Shown here piece after piece: positions 26,651 through 32,372 of a DNA stretch of 64,000 nucleotides. Numbering within the stretch: the stretch's first letter is position 1; each line of letters begins with the position of its first letter. The position numbers and the translations under genes are program-made. This DNA is from Streptantibioticus rubrisoli. GTDB lineage: Bacteria > Actinomycetota > Actinomycetes > Streptomycetales > Streptomycetaceae. Under the pieces are notes generated by a model, which worked only from the letters and a program-made list of their open reading frames with translations, ran no database searches and was not told the origin of the DNA. Location: positions 558,001-622,000 of the forward strand of contig NZ_JANFNH010000001.1 in the NCBI RefSeq assembly GCF_024436055.1. The letters run 5' to 3'.

Positions 26651-27469
26651 TCAGCTCTTGATGAACTCCAGCAGGTCGTTGTTGAGTTCCTCGGCATGGG
26701 TGATGTGGAGGCCATGACCGGCGGTCGCGTACTCCTTGTAGACGCTGTGCGGTACGAGCTTGGCGGTGCGTCGGCTGGAGACGTCGATCGGAACGGACTG
26801 GTCGGCGATCCCGTGGGCGATGAACGTCGGGATGGTGATCCGGGCCAGGTCGGCGCGGTGATCCGCGTTGAACAACTGCCGCTGTGTCTCGACGGTGACG
26901 TAGAAGGAGGGTGACAGACACTGCCGTAGCATGTGGTCGACCATCGCCTGGGACACGTTGTTGCCCAGATGGGTGGCGAAGTAGCCCTGGGCACGGTCGG
27001 CGAACCACTTGGCGCGGTCAGCCCGGAGTTGGGCCAGGTCAGCTTCGAGCGCCTCCTCCGGCACGCCCTCCGGGTTGTCGTCGGTCAGCTTGAGGAACGG
27101 CAACGTGGTGGACAGCAGCGCCACCCGCGCGATGCGGTCCTGGCCGTGCCGGGCGAGGTAGCGCACCGCCTCGCCACCGCCGCCCGACTGCCCGACGAGG
27201 GTGACCCCATCCAGGTCCAGGTGCTCGATCAGCGCGGCGACATCGTCGGCGCGGGTGTCCACGTCGTATCCGGTGGAAGGCCGGTCAGAGCGACCGTGGC
27301 CGCGCCGGTCCAGCATGACGCAGCGGTAGCCGTGCTCCAGGAAGAACGGAACCTGGTACTCCCACATGTCGGCCGACAGCACCCAACTGGCCAGGAACAC
27401 GATGGGCTCACCCTGGCCGTAGTCCTCGTAGGCAAGCCGCACTCCGTCGTTGGTCTTGAAAAACGGCAT
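26651..27469 (-). CDS. Alpha/beta hydrolase (haloperoxidase/esterase type)
   Basis: A 272-residue hydrolase. The nucleophile elbow is LVGQSGGGGEA (Ser near residue 95), the acid is in HGIADQSVPID and the histidine is in GHGLHITHAEE. DRRGHGRSDRPSTGYDVDTR before the elbow is the hallmark of the non-heme chloroperoxidase/arylesterase group. It has no signal peptide. ATG 27469 has GAGGAGAT upstream. It has no operon partners; the substrate is unknown. The active site looks complete. Confidence 0.82.
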   Translation of the reverse strand: MPFFKTNDGVRLAYEDYGQGEPIVFLASWVLSADMWEYQVPFFLEHGYRCVMLDRRGHGRSDRPSTGYDVDTRADDVAALIEHLDLDGVTLVGQSGGGGEAVRYLARHGQDRIARVALLSTTLPFLKLTDDNPEGVPEEALEADLAQLRADRAKWFADRAQGYFATHLGNNVSQAMVDHMLRQCLSPSFYVTVETQRQLFNADHRADLARITIPTFIAHGIADQSVPIDVSSRRTAKLVPHSVYKEYATAGHGLHITHAEELNNDLLEFIKS

Positions 27470-27852
27470 CTCGATCTCCTCGTCTCAGGGTTCGTCGCTC
27501 TTGCTGAACACGACGCTACGAAGGATCGCGACCGCGCGAATCAGTCACGCATAGGTAATCCCGGGAACCCACCGAGGAGTTCAGCGGTGTGACGGGGCGA
27601 AGGCCTTTTGGTACATCCGTGGGCATCGTGCCCACTGGTCGGCGCACGTGCAGATGCAGGTTGGCGGCGCTGCCCAGACCACAACGGTTGCCCACCTGGT
27701 CGACGGACGCCGTATGGAATGCGATCGCCCCGCACACCCACGCGCAGACAGCCGAACGCCGCGATACGCTGTGTCCCCTCGCCCGGCTCGGGAGCGGCAT
27801 GGACTTCGACTTCGGCTGGAACCGAACCATCACACCTGCCGACCGGGTGTCG
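27470..27852. other. Intergenic stretch without a convincing gene
   Basis: A 383-base gap between two minus-strand genes. One minus-strand frame (about 27610-27750) reads AFHTASVDQVGNRCGLGS and then HLHLHVRR, vaguely like the end of an M23 peptidase domain, but there is no start, no metal-site context and no flanking similarity. Base composition shifts toward lower GC from here rightward. I see no gene, RNA or terminator that I can support. Confidence 0.4.
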
Positions 27853-28851
27853 TCAAACGAGCGAGACCTCTTTGATCTCCTCCTCCAGCACCCTGCCACA
27901 GCGAACGCGGAAACGAACTCTGGGATTCTGCCCGTCGAGCTCCATCTTGATGGTGCGCTCTTCGGTCCACCCCTGCAACCGGAATTCCGCGCTTCCGATG
28001 TGAACAAGTCCAAACCGGGGCGCGCCGTCGATGATGAGCGTCAGCCGCTCATCGATGAGTTTGATGGCCCCGGAGATGCTTTGATCAGCTCGCGCCTCCG
28101 TTTCGTCCGACCAGTCGGGGAAGTTCGCTGGAACATCAACCTCGCATTGAAACCCGACTATCTCAGATCTTTGGATCGGAACCACGTCACGGGAAAGTAG
28201 GACATCGCTCCAGGGGAGCCGCCGCAGATAATCGGCGGGAAAAAGTTCGAGGAGCTCCACTGTCGCTCCACAGTCGATCACGATGTGTATCCGCCGCGCT
28301 GAGCCTCGGTTCCTGGCTACATGCGGACGGTCGAAGTCCGCATACCACAGTCGCCCGGCCTCCCAATGAAACGTCTCACCATCCACGACGAGCTCCGCGC
28401 CCGGCTGGGTCACCACGGGTATGTGGAGCCGGAGCACACCCCACGGAAAATTGGTCCGCCCATCGCGGTGCTCATGGGTGGACGCCCCCGGTCCGAGCGC
28501 CATGAGTCGTACGCTGTACAGGGGTGCGGGAATCCCGGAGAGGATCTCAGCGTGGTACGGACAGCGCTCCATGACCGGGGTGTCGAGAAAGTCTTCCAGG
28601 CCGGCACCGCCGGGATCAGTACGTCCGGATTCGCCGCCCGGGGAACGAAGTGAGATTATCTTCCAGTCGAACTCCTCCTCGGCACCGATGCCATATTGAC
28701 TGACCGGACGGTTTCCACCCCAGGTCAAATCCACCAGGTCCTGAACCTCCGCACCGAGGCGTTCGGCGTCGGCTTCCAGATCGAGCGGCACCGCAGGCGG
28801 CAATTGTAGCCATGCTCCGCGAACGCTCATGATGTCGGCGGTGTCAGACAT
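27853..28851 (-). CDS. Aspartyl/asparaginyl beta-hydroxylase-like Fe(II)/2-oxoglutarate oxygenase
   Basis: A 332-residue protein. The AspH-type core spans about residues 110-200: GPGASTHEHRDGRTNF (iron ligand His), LRLHIPVVTQPGAELVVDGE, HWEAGRLWYADFDRPHVARN (second His) and RRIHIVIDC. This matches enzymes that hydroxylate Asp/Asn residues or free and carrier-bound amino acids. The C-terminal 120 residues (from about SDETEARADQ) are an extra region I do not recognise. ATG 28851 follows the P450 stop by 4 bases, with AAAGGAT upstream, so the genes are coupled. It shares the low GC of the segment. Inference: it tailors the product of the pentapeptide/P450 pair, for instance by beta-hydroxylation. 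Confidence 0.75.
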   Translation of the reverse strand: MSDTADIMSVRGAWLQLPPAVPLDLEADAERLGAEVQDLVDLTWGGNRPVSQYGIGAEEEFDWKIISLRSPGGESGRTDPGGAGLEDFLDTPVMERCPYHAEILSGIPAPLYSVRLMALGPGASTHEHRDGRTNFPWGVLRLHIPVVTQPGAELVVDGETFHWEAGRLWYADFDRPHVARNRGSARRIHIVIDCGATVELLELFPADYLRRLPWSDVLLSRDVVPIQRSEIVGFQCEVDVPANFPDWSDETEARADQSISGAIKLIDERLTLIIDGAPRFGLVHIGSAEFRLQGWTEERTIKMELDGQNPRVRFRVRCGRVLEEEIKEVSLV

Positions 28852-28855
28852 GGGG

Positions 28856-30043
28856 TCATCCTTTCGAAGGGTGCGTGGCGAACGGCACATCGTAGGGTGC
28901 CGGCGGCATCCCGCCGCGCCTGACCGGAATCGCCGCAAACGCGCGGCTGGTGCTGATTCCCTTACGCCGGGGCAGATCTTCGAGAATCAGGTCGGGAACG
29001 TTCTCCAAAAGCGCACGCAGCGCCGTTTCCATCATCGACAGGGTGAGGTTGGCGCCGAGGCATACGTGAGCACCCCAACCGAGGGCGAAGTGCGGATTCG
29101 GCGCTCGGTAGAGATCCAAGGAATCGGGTTCCTCGAACTGTCGGCCATCCCGGTTGGCGGATCCGAGCAGAAGAATCAAATTATCGCCGACCGCTATGGT
29201 CTGGCTGCCCACAGTGGTCTGAGCAGCGCAGCGGCGCGCGGTCACCTGCACCGGGCCGTCGTAGCGCAGGAGCTCGTCACATGCAGTGTGCCATTGATCA
29301 GCGGGAATAGCGGACAGGCCCCTGAGACGCGAGGGTTGCTGCAGGAGGGCCACCACCGCATTCCCGAGTGCTGCCGTTCCCGTGCCGTACGTCGAGAATA
29401 TGATAAAACGCACGGTGTCATGGACGGACTCCATGTCGACCTGGATATTGTTCGCACCATTCAGGACATGGCCGAGGAGTCCGGGTTCGTGGTCTGCGAA
29501 CCAGACGCTGATCACCTTTGATATACGTGCCCGGGCTTCGACCGCAGGAGAGATCACCTCCGGGCGCAGTCCGCCATCCATTGCTCGTTGAAGAGCGGTC
29601 GCGTCGTGATCGAATTCGTTGAACTGCGGGGCAGGGACACCTATCAGATCGCACAGGACCGCCAATGCGAAAGGCCCTATGAATTCGCGCATAACGTCGA
29701 ATGATTCTTTACCTGAAAGGCCGAGGAGCAACTCGCGTGCCCGCTTCGCCATCAGGGATCGAAACTCGATCGTCTCGGCAGCGCGAAGCCCGGTGCGCAC
29801 CAGGCTCCTATAGGGGAGACTCACTGGAGGATCAAGGCTCTGGATGCCGGGGGCATCGGCGTCGGCAGCGAACCCTCGATAGTCCGTCAGAATTCTTCGA
29901 CAGTCATCGTATTGTGAGATGATCCAAGACTCCAAAGGCTCGAACCAGTGAACTGGTTCCACCTCCCTGAGCCTCCTGTACATCGAATACGGATCACTTT
30001 GGAACTCGCTTGAGAGTGGCTTGAATAGCTCGTCAGAAGTCAC
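28856..30043 (-). CDS. Cytochrome P450, candidate peptide-crosslinking enzyme of a minimal RiPP cluster
   Basis: A 395-residue P450. The heme loop is HFALGWGAHVCLGANL (thiolate Cys328), and the K-helix ExxR is in CDELLRYDGPVQ. The I-helix reads FSTYGTGTAAL: the usual acid-threonine pair (E/D-T) is not there, with G-T in its place, which is unusual for a monooxygenase and compatible with oxidative coupling chemistry. GTG 30043 is chosen because GGAG lies 9 bases upstream; an ATG at 30127 would place most of the hairpin inside the coding region. Directly upstream lies an 18-base gene for MAYKW, as in biarylitide clusters, where a P450 crosslinks aromatic side chains of a pentapeptide. Ferredoxin partners are not adjacent. 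Confidence 0.8.
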   Translation of the reverse strand: MTSDELFKPLSSEFQSDPYSMYRRLREVEPVHWFEPLESWIISQYDDCRRILTDYRGFAADADAPGIQSLDPPVSLPYRSLVRTGLRAAETIEFRSLMAKRARELLLGLSGKESFDVMREFIGPFALAVLCDLIGVPAPQFNEFDHDATALQRAMDGGLRPEVISPAVEARARISKVISVWFADHEPGLLGHVLNGANNIQVDMESVHDTVRFIIFSTYGTGTAALGNAVVALLQQPSRLRGLSAIPADQWHTACDELLRYDGPVQVTARRCAAQTTVGSQTIAVGDNLILLLGSANRDGRQFEEPDSLDLYRAPNPHFALGWGAHVCLGANLTLSMMETALRALLENVPDLILEDLPRRKGISTSRAFAAIPVRRGGMPPAPYDVPFATHPSKG

Positions 30044-30091
30044 GATTGACACTCCACGGCTGCGGGTCGAGCAGCGGATTCGACGGCCGGA

Positions 30092-30120
30092 GGGTGGCCT
30101 TGCCTGAGGCAAGGCCACCC
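30092..30120 (-). promoter_or_regulatory. Perfect 13-bp hairpin between pentapeptide gene and P450 gene
   Basis: GGGTGGCCTTGCC (30092-30104) pairs exactly with GGCAAGGCCACCC (30108-30120); the loop is three bases. It lies 13 bases after the pentapeptide stop and 48 bases before the P450 start. No T tract follows. It could act as a partial terminator or 3' stabiliser so that precursor is made in excess of enzyme. Confidence 0.65.
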
Positions 30121-30133
30121 AGCTCATTGGTAA

Positions 30134-30151
30134 TTACCACTTGTAAGCCAT
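30134..30151 (-). CDS. Pentapeptide RiPP precursor MAYKW (biarylitide-like)
   Basis: On the minus strand ATG-GCT-TAC-AAG-TGG-TAA encodes MAYKW. The start is preceded at 5 bases by GGAGGGGAGG (30166-30157), one of the strongest ribosome binding sites in the window, although no longer reading frame follows it. The next gene is a P450. In biarylitide clusters an 18-base gene encodes a pentapeptide such as MRYYH, and the P450 joins the side chains of residues 3 and 5. Here Tyr3 and Trp5 fill those positions. The peptide sequence, ribosome binding site and gene order are seen directly; crosslinking, N-terminal trimming to a tripeptide and product release are inferred. It is far below any ORF length cut-off. 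Confidence 0.72.
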   Translation of the reverse strand: MAYKW

Positions 30152-30261
30152 CTCGGCCTCCCCTCCATATACAACTTCCCTCTTTCCGTCTCGAGTCATC
30201 CATGCCTACGGCCACGGACACCCGAGAGGTCTCAATGGTTTCCGATGCGACTCACGCCGAG

Positions 30262-30444
30262 TCACACCGGGGTGAGGCGGCATCGATCCTCCGCACGCTT
30301 GAGCCAGGGTCTGTGATGTTCATGTTGGCGGCCGTCGGCCGGTGTATGCATCGCCAAGGTGGCTTCCGCGAGTGGCGATATAGAAAGCCGGAGCTTACTC
30401 AGGTCAGCCTGTGTAAAAGGCAGAGAGACTGTCAATTGGCTCAT
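30262..30444 (-). pseudogene. N-terminal remnant of a DUF5937/ArsR-type winged-helix regulator
   Basis: From ATG 30444 the frame gives MSQLTVSLPFTQADLSKLRL and then SISPLAEATLAMHT, close to the opening of the streptomycete regulators whose N-terminal domain reads L-x-F-x-x-x-D-L-x-x-x-R-x-x-x-S-P-L-x-E. The similarity runs on through HRPWLKRAE, and the frame stops at 30262 after 60 residues, with no DNA-binding domain. AAGGA abuts the start. I read it as a truncated gene upstream of the RiPP locus; a small active protein is less likely. Confidence 0.45.
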
Positions 30445-30950
30445 TCCTTGGATACGAGCCGCCCGACTCAGCCGACGTACTGGGAGGGCGAGAATGCCTT
30501 GTAGTAACCACCGTCGACCCACGTTCTATCTGGCCTCGGCGTTGCCGCGGCCCCGATCAGGCTGCCTCGGGTGGCCGTATGGAGTCTCGTTTCCCACAAG
30601 CCCCACACCCCGGTCGGCCCCTTCGCCTCACCGCGAATGTAGGGCCGGCGACGCATTGTGTGGAGTGTCTAGTTGCGCGGTGAAGCGTCCGGCCACCTCC
30701 CCTGGTTGCCTCAAGCGCGGAATCCCAAGGCATGCTCCGCACGCATTGCCCGCCCACTGGTCTTCGGCAGGCCCGCTACGGTGACGCTATGGATACGGGT
30801 CCGTCGGCCGTCCTAGATTCGTCCTAGTGCCAGGTCAGCCGGGGGATCGGCGCTGACCGTGAAGGCCAGGGGGGCACATGAGATTTGGCGTGCTGGTCCG
30901 ATTAACGTGATCTTTAACCTGCGCGTTTCACTTGGGGCTGTGTCCGGATC
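30445..30950. other. Intergenic region without a supported gene
   Basis: About 500 bases with mixed composition. At 30878 a GGGGGG-preceded ATG opens a 10-codon frame, MRFGVLVRLT, that looks like the very start of a SARP-type regulator (MRFGxLGPL) but ends at once. CCTAG repeats lie near 30814-30826. No complete gene, RNA or phage element was recognised; the MFS promoter presumably lies near 30900-30940. Confidence 0.4.
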
Positions 30951-32372
30951 ATGATCGAGAACGCGAAAGTGCCTTCCGCCCGTACGTCCCATCCGCCGCG
31001 CACCGCCATGCTGGCCCTGGTGGCCGTCTACGCCGCCGGTTCGCTGGCGGGATACCTCCTGCCGAGCGTTGTCGAACGCCTGACCATTTGTCTGCGGCTG
31101 ACGGCGACACAGGCTGGGGTCGTCGGCAGTGCGTTGTTGTTCGCCTCCGCCGGTACTGGTTTCGCCTTCGCCTCGCGGGTCGCCAGGATCGGCCCCAGGC
31201 GGCTGGCCAGAGCCGGGTTGTCGCTCGCCGCCGGTGGATTCGCCGTCGCCGCGTGCGCGGACTGCGCGCCGCTGGTGATGGTCGGAAGCATCGCCGGAGG
31301 ATTCGGTTCCGGTGCCGCCACGGCGGTGGCCTCCGTCGACATCGCCGGGCGACCGGACCCGCAGCGCGCCTTGGTGCTGGGGCTGCTGGCCACTTCGGCC
31401 GCCGCGGCCGGGTTGTATCTGCTGCTGCCACGGCGGGGCGGCGGCCACCAGTTGCCGTTCGTCGCGCTTGCCTGCGTCACGGCGGGTGTGCTGCCCGCGG
31501 TACGGCGGCTGCCGACGATGGCCCAGCGTGCGGAGCGCCGGACGGAGACCAGCACCGGTCGGGTGGCGGGCCTGGTCTTGGTGGCCGCCACGCTGGGCTG
31601 GTCCGCGGTACAGACGGCGCTGTGGAGCGTCAGCAGTCGCATCGGCCTGGAACGGGTGGGGCTGTCCGAGGCCGCGTTGGGCGTCGTCTTCGCCCTGGCG
31701 CTCGGCGGTGGTCTGGCCGAGGTGGTCGGTGCGGGGGCGCTCGGCTCCCGGCTGGGGCGGGCGGTGCCAGTCGGGTTGGGCACCGCGGTCATCGCGGCCT
31801 GTGTCGCGGCCAGTTCGGCGACCCGGACGGCATGGGCGTTCACTGTGGGAGAGGTGGTGTGGAACACCGTCTACCCCGTTGTGTTCTCCCATCTGATCGG
31901 CATGGCCGCCGCCATCGGCGCCCATGGCCGGTGGGTGGTCTTCGCTGGCTCCGCGTCCTCGCTGGGCGTCGCGGGCGGACCGCTCACCGGAACGCTGTTG
32001 TCCACTCGCGCCGGATACCCCGCGATGGGCGCGGTCCTCGGGGCCACGCTGCTGTTGGCCGCGGTCCCACTGACCGCGGTGGCGCTGCTCGCCGACGGCT
32101 GGGTGCCACGGCGACGCATGGGCGACGCGGTCGGTCGGTGTGCCGTCGCGTTGCCGGAGCCCGAACTCTCCGGAGCCCTCGTCGCCAACCCGGTTCCGGT
32201 TGTGGAGATAGCGGAAATGGTCTGTGATGCGGGCGAGTTGGGCTTGCCTCTGGTAACGGCCACCCGACGGCCGCTCCGGAAGCGGTGCCGGGTACGCCGT
32301 CCACGGGACTGGTCCGTGCCCGGCGCCAGTACCGGGACGGTCCGCGGAAACGCCGTTGAACAGCGCATGTAG
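30951..32372 (+). CDS. MFS transporter
   Basis: A 473-residue polytopic protein. Twelve hydrophobic helices can be traced, with AGSLAGYLLPSVVERL near the start, ASRVARIGPRRLARAGLSLA at the loop 2-3 position (a degenerate motif A) and FGSGAATAVASVDIAG after helix 4. The C-terminal 80 residues after the last helix (from about WVPRRRMGD) are hydrophilic and arginine-rich. ATG 30951 lacks a clear Shine-Dalgarno sequence. It lies about 800 bases from the pentapeptide gene and on the opposite strand, so a role in exporting that product is possible but only positional. Substrate unknown. Confidence 0.7.
   Translation: MIENAKVPSARTSHPPRTAMLALVAVYAAGSLAGYLLPSVVERLTICLRLTATQAGVVGSALLFASAGTGFAFASRVARIGPRRLARAGLSLAAGGFAVAACADCAPLVMVGSIAGGFGSGAATAVASVDIAGRPDPQRALVLGLLATSAAAAGLYLLLPRRGGGHQLPFVALACVTAGVLPAVRRLPTMAQRAERRTETSTGRVAGLVLVAATLGWSAVQTALWSVSSRIGLERVGLSEAALGVVFALALGGGLAEVVGAGALGSRLGRAVPVGLGTAVIAACVAASSATRTAWAFTVGEVVWNTVYPVVFSHLIGMAAAIGAHGRWVVFAGSASSLGVAGGPLTGTLLSTRAGYPAMGAVLGATLLLAAVPLTAVALLADGWVPRRRMGDAVGRCAVALPEPELSGALVANPVPVVEIAEMVCDAGELGLPLVTATRRPLRKRCRVRRPRDWSVPGASTGTVRGNAVEQRM

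Follow-up and report, generated by a model that had tools for sequence, protein, structure and literature searches.

A 64,000-nucleotide stretch of the Streptantibioticus rubrisoli genome (contig NZ_JANFNH010000001.1, hereafter the window) was analysed, and it probably holds a three-gene biarylitide-type cluster for a ribosomally synthesized and post-translationally modified peptide (RiPP). The pentapeptide precursor MAYKW would be cross-linked between Tyr3 and Trp5 by a cytochrome P450 and then hydroxylated, most likely on Lys4, by an aspartyl/asparaginyl beta-hydroxylase-like enzyme (AspH). As the preliminary description of this DNA had stated, an 18-base minus-strand MAYKW gene behind a ribosome binding site (RBS) could be read directly from the letters, and it is followed by the P450 gene (stop at 28856) and, after a 4-base gap, by the AspH gene beginning at 28851. 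The coordinates of all features are listed in Table 1.

The coding letters of the MAYKW gene are ATG-GCT-TAC-AAG-TGG-TAA (30151-30134), and the GGAGGGGAGG motif at 30166-30157 precedes its start by 5 nt. MAYKW carries aromatic residues at positions 3 and 5, a defining feature of the biarylitides, whose precursors are to our knowledge the smallest among RiPPs. When 363 genomes of the order were searched with the pattern GAGG-N3-9-ATG-NNN-TAY-AAR-TGG-TRA, the only match was the MAYKW locus itself, while the reversed control gave 0 matches among the genomes listed. Similarly, a strict pattern of RBS plus ATG-x-Ar-x-Ar-stop (Ar, aromatic) matched once across the 64-kb window, at MAYKW. This unique match, together with the same kind of 18-nt gene beside the nearest relatives of the P450, suggests that the MAYKW gene is more than a chance open reading frame (ORF).

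The P450 (395 aa) likely starts at GTG 30043, because this codon is preceded by a well-spaced GGAG, whereas the start given in the ORF list, ATG 30127 (423 aa), has no RBS, lies just upstream of a 13-bp hairpin and opens a frame that reads through it. In the PDB, the P450 matched the 8U2M group best (P450Blt, 202 bits), with RufO-type enzymes close behind at 195-201 bits; a match at 170 bits came next, and other P450s reached 146 bits or less. The preliminary description had proposed to look for a short gene beside homologous P450s, and one of conserved type was indeed found: an ATG-x-Tyr-x-His/Tyr-stop gene is present in 25 of 29 loci sampled from the matches at E<=1e-50 within the order, nearly always near the P450 and behind an RBS. 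The encoded pentapeptides include MRYLH, MRYAY, MKYWH, MSYDH, MRYVH, MRYIY, MFYDH and others. No such gene was seen in the next tier of relatives (L005-L009, E 1e-41 to 1e-45). One of the other four loci, L017, has an MRYND gene with an RBS and a downstream hairpin, about 206 nt upstream of a biarylitide-type P450 match (2685, minus strand); since its position 5 is Asp, finders requiring aromatics at positions 3 and 5 would miss it. Two plasmids also carry a short gene downstream of a P450. In Bacillus arachidis (L105, 4210-4227, plus strand), an MNYNH gene with a strong RBS lies just downstream of a biarylitide-type P450 and close to genes for an IS6 transposase and an ATP-grasp protein, and in pSALBX2 of Streptomyces albogriseolus (L108, 4214, plus strand) an MRHIH gene (His3-His5) with an RBS is found.

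The specificity of P450Blt has been assigned to residues A231/H234/E238 (PMC10929621). Among the relatives, the corresponding I-helix triad tracks the precursor, with AHE accompanying most MxYxH peptides, VQS accompanying MxYDH and VLS accompanying MRYAY. Near two biarylitide-like P450s with a V-N-G triad (L024 and L028), no short gene for an aromatic peptide could be recognised. The window P450 is divergent, with at most 42% identity to the sampled relatives, and in the tree its long branch falls on the side of MSYDH and MRYAY (92/76).

On the same strand, the 90-nt spacer from the MAYKW stop to the P450 start holds the 13-bp hairpin mentioned above. Most pentapeptide loci have a comparable stem, typically of 11-16 bp and beginning 7-31 nt past the precursor stop, while several MSYDH loci gave short stems only in a simple stem test. 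The stem sequences are unrelated, so that it is the structure that recurs, as expected of an attenuator or an mRNA end. The hairpin of the window is likely to be an mRNA 3' end or attenuator. In myxarylin, the bytA-bytO spacer is also 90 bp long, and its predicted secondary structure has been set beside a terminator hairpin (PMC8708641).

The window AspH possesses the HxD...H iron ligands and the 2-oxoglutarate-binding Arg, which are conserved in 29 of 31 relatives. AspH relatives occur in 27 of 392 genomes; besides the window, 10 of them adjoin a biarylitide-type P450 and a pentapeptide gene. The AspH tree implies that this association was gained or lost repeatedly. The pentapeptides of AspH-bearing clusters are MAYKW, MRYLH, MRYIH, MRYAY, MSYDH and MTYDH, and the AspH subclades follow the residue at position 4 (K, D, L) in the tree. 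In two plasmid records with MSYDH or MTYDH, the P450 is followed by a gene annotated as hypothetical, the AspH and a further gene, which in one of them is annotated as glycine amidinotransferase. A counterpart of the middle protein in another locus contains a PreAtp-grasp domain.

The only close relatives found for the window AspH, 64-66% identical, belong to five Streptomyces operons (L094-L098), with which it forms a clade with a tree support of 100/100. When the profile of this clade was run against about 85,000 species genomes, only five loci were returned, all from Streptomyces; the scan works by short peptide patterns and is not exhaustive. In each of the five loci the gene row is P450, major facilitator superfamily (MFS) gene and AspH, and the GFYKY-type operons have a divergent LuxR-type regulator. 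The small ORF ahead of the P450 encodes 26-33 aa and ends in GFYKY in four loci and in SYKY, with a different leader, in the fifth. Streptomyces tibetensis and S. rishiriensis are among the hosts of a GFYKY operon. The GFYKY form reads MALLKT(V/A)SYAIARRTKMTA(V/L)AGFYKY; in one aligned pair the flanking sequence has diverged much more than the ORF, and in several operons (L094, L095, L098) a strong hairpin lies past it. The P450 tested from these operons is unlike biarylitide P450s, its nearest PDB entry being 3dbg. As the C-termini are shared despite unrelated P450s and leaders, we infer that the AspH recognises the aromatic-Lys-aromatic unit. This suggests that the clade serves an aromatic-Lys-aromatic ring, in which Lys would most likely be the residue hydroxylated. 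A broader proposal, which we put forward tentatively, is that the clade is dedicated to tailoring such cyclic units from two unrelated P450 lineages, namely the pentapeptide/biarylitide type and the longer-precursor type. The AspH would then form hydroxylysine within a ring bridged by Tyr-Trp or Tyr-Tyr, and the products would be convergent ribosomal analogues of the biphenomycin antibiotics. No description of a P450-MFS-AspH operon with a GFYKY or SYKY precursor was found in the literature searched, and the GFYKY system is apparently an undescribed RiPP-like operon.

For the window cluster, we propose that the 18-nt gene yields MAYKW and that the intergenic hairpin probably lets the precursor mRNA exceed the enzyme mRNA. 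The P450 would oxidise Tyr3 and bond it to Trp5 with loss of two hydrogens, so that Y-K-W becomes a small ring. The AspH-type Fe(II)/2-oxoglutarate enzyme would next add a hydroxyl group, most likely on the central Lys4 side chain. Met-Ala would be cut off by a house peptidase, and the tripeptide may leave the cell through a resident exporter. The predicted product, a Tyr3-Trp5 cross-linked and hydroxylated YKW, would have an [M+H]+ of about 510.23, as calculated from monoisotopic residue masses. Known biarylitide P450s accept Trp5 (PMC13417212), and Tyr-Trp substrates are taken by both P450Blt (PMC13417212) and the myxarylin enzyme BytO (PMC12951456).

Several observations weigh against this pathway. 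By alignment, the I-helix triad of the window P450 is Phe/Phe/Gly where P450Blt has A/H/E. The preliminary description had also raised the question of where the P450 belongs: the PDB scores reveal no firm grouping with small-molecule hydroxylases, but on its long branch the approximately unbiased (AU) test does not reject joining it to the canonical P450s (p-AU 0.28). Pattern searches of the 363 genomes found no MxYKW or MxYKY gene other than MAYKW, and hence no second MxYKW cluster to show a conserved exact precursor. On expression of the sav cluster, a biarylitide cluster with an AspH, no hydroxylation was seen (PMC13417212). An AlphaFold model of the AspH (six sequences) reached a mean pLDDT of 41, too poor for use. 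Finally, it is Tyr3, not Lys4, that is common to all AspH-bearing pentapeptide clusters.

Because of this last point, the main rival is the same cluster with the C-beta of Tyr3, or another core residue, as the AspH target instead of Lys4. In biphenomycin clusters, each of two side-chain hydroxylations does have its own enzyme (PMC12257519). However, the division of AspH subclades by the position-4 residue counts against Tyr3, and the window clade keeps Lys across two unrelated P450 types, so that we regard this alternative as unlikely, though a serious contender. It is improbable that the P450 alters one residue without any cross-link, like RufO, which nitrates a pentapeptide Tyr. RufO-type enzymes are among its best PDB matches and arose from biarylitide P450s through small active-site changes (PMC13417212), and the triad of the window P450 is unusual; yet the insert that carries the cluster has neither a nitric oxide synthase nor a nonribosomal peptide synthetase, MAYKW keeps both aromatics, and the Tyr-Trp substrates of P450Blt and BytO speak for cross-linking. 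A longer precursor is very improbable as well: an in-frame ATG at 30199, 48 nt upstream of the MAYKW start, would give the 21-aa ORF MTRDGKREVVYGGEAEMAYKW, and the closest AspH relatives act beside 26-33-aa precursors, but this ATG has no RBS, in contrast to the strong one of ATG 30151, and close P450 relatives use pentapeptides. That MAYKW is a chance ORF, with the P450 and AspH making an unrelated small molecule, is hardly credible, for although conservation of the exact precursor was not seen elsewhere and the P450 placement is not firm, the single pattern match fell exactly where expected, with an RBS and a hairpin, and the P450 relatives carry pentapeptide genes.

Compared with the bytA-bytO clusters (MRYYH, MRYLH; P450Blt from Micromonospora sp. 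MW-13), the MAYKW cluster shares the 18-nt gene, the two-residue leader, the aromatic residues 3 and 5, and a P450 close downstream past a hairpin, with the spacer length of myxarylin. It differs in its Y-K-W core, the added AspH and the F/F/G triad. The sav cluster of Saccharothrix variisporea encodes MRYVH, the P450 SavB, the AspH SavH and the amidinotransferase SavT (PMC13417212). An AspH-type hydroxylase is common to both, whereas the window cluster has no amidinotransferase and has Trp5 in place of His5. Biarylitide-type clusters of Actinomadura encode MKYLW or MKYIW (PMC13417212), with the same Trp5 but Leu or Ile instead of Lys at position 4. The Streptomyces L094-L098 operons share the related AspH and an aromatic-Lys-aromatic C-terminus, and differ in their longer precursor, unrelated P450, own transporter and LuxR-type regulator. 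If the prediction holds, the product would share with biphenomycin (pbs, bip) a biaryl-bridged aromatic-basic-aromatic tripeptide with a hydroxylated basic residue. The biphenomycin clusters use a multinuclear non-heme iron-dependent oxidative enzyme (MNIO), an arginase, a B12 radical S-adenosylmethionine (SAM) enzyme and a JmjC/cupin hydroxylase, against P450 and AspH here; the set of MNIO, arginase, B12-radical SAM enzyme and FRF-type precursor is not present in the insert. Any likeness would be convergent, since the ornithine hydroxylases of biphenomycin are JmjC/cupin enzymes and not AspH.

The preliminary reading as a biarylitide-type cluster is thus supported, but neither Trp5 nor AspH is new to such clusters (PMC13417212), and the hairpin spacer is likewise already on record. 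The literature searched contained no record of three other traits, namely the Y-K-W core, the divergence and altered triad of the P450, and the connection through AspH with a second RiPP-like operon; a published list of 277 clusters lay outside this search and may include MAYKW. No activity is seen for the biarylitides published so far (PMC13417212). With its Lys-containing YKW ring and its hydroxylase, the MAYKW cluster would add a member that is both basic and hydroxylated, and the AspH clade offers a testable clue to the targets of co-encoded hydroxylases, including that of sav. The analysis also exposes a RiPP-like operon that combines a GFYKY precursor with an unrelated P450, MFS and AspH.

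Table 1. Positions of the MAYKW cluster features in the window and of the related operons in their own loci
Feature	Position	Strand	Evidence
Ribosome binding site GGAGGGGAGG	30157..30166	-	letters read directly
18-nt precursor gene, MAYKW (leader MA, core YKW)	30134..30151	-	letters read directly, genome pattern search
Perfect 13-bp hairpin, GGGTGGCCTTGCC-TCA-GGCAAGGCCACCC	30092..30120	-	sequence folding
Biarylitide-type cytochrome P450, predicted Tyr3-Trp5 cross-linking enzyme	28856..30043	-	PF00067; PDB matches of P450Blt/RufO type
Aspartyl/asparaginyl beta-hydroxylase-like Fe/2-oxoglutarate enzyme, 332 aa, extra C-terminal region	27853..28851	-	PF05118 1e-16
Insert carrying the cluster, ends approximate	27675..30978	strandless	DNA homology to sister species G001
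RiPP-like P450/MFS/AspH operon (also L094-L098)	L066 8353-12200; L067 5692-9573	-; +	

Homology to the sister species (G001) ends at 27674 and picks up again at 30979, which places the cluster in an insert of about 3.3 kb. The lower-GC island of the preliminary description was confirmed, as the cluster genes have 60-61% GC against 68.6% in the window. Neither congener has the cluster, and its acquisition would be a simpler reading than its loss in the others. The alpha/beta hydrolase gene (26651-27469) and the divergent MFS gene (30951-32372), considered as cluster peptidase and exporter respectively, were set aside as resident genes: they are directly adjacent in the sister species (84% and 81%). 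A second P450 gene (35255-36709, minus strand; 484 aa, PF00067) lies about 5 kb away, outside the insert, with no sign of cluster membership. Apart from MAYKW, P450 and AspH, the insert contains only a short regulator-like fragment, the ORF 30262-30522 (minus strand), which matches part of DUF5937 below the cut-off and is probably a truncated regulator gene.
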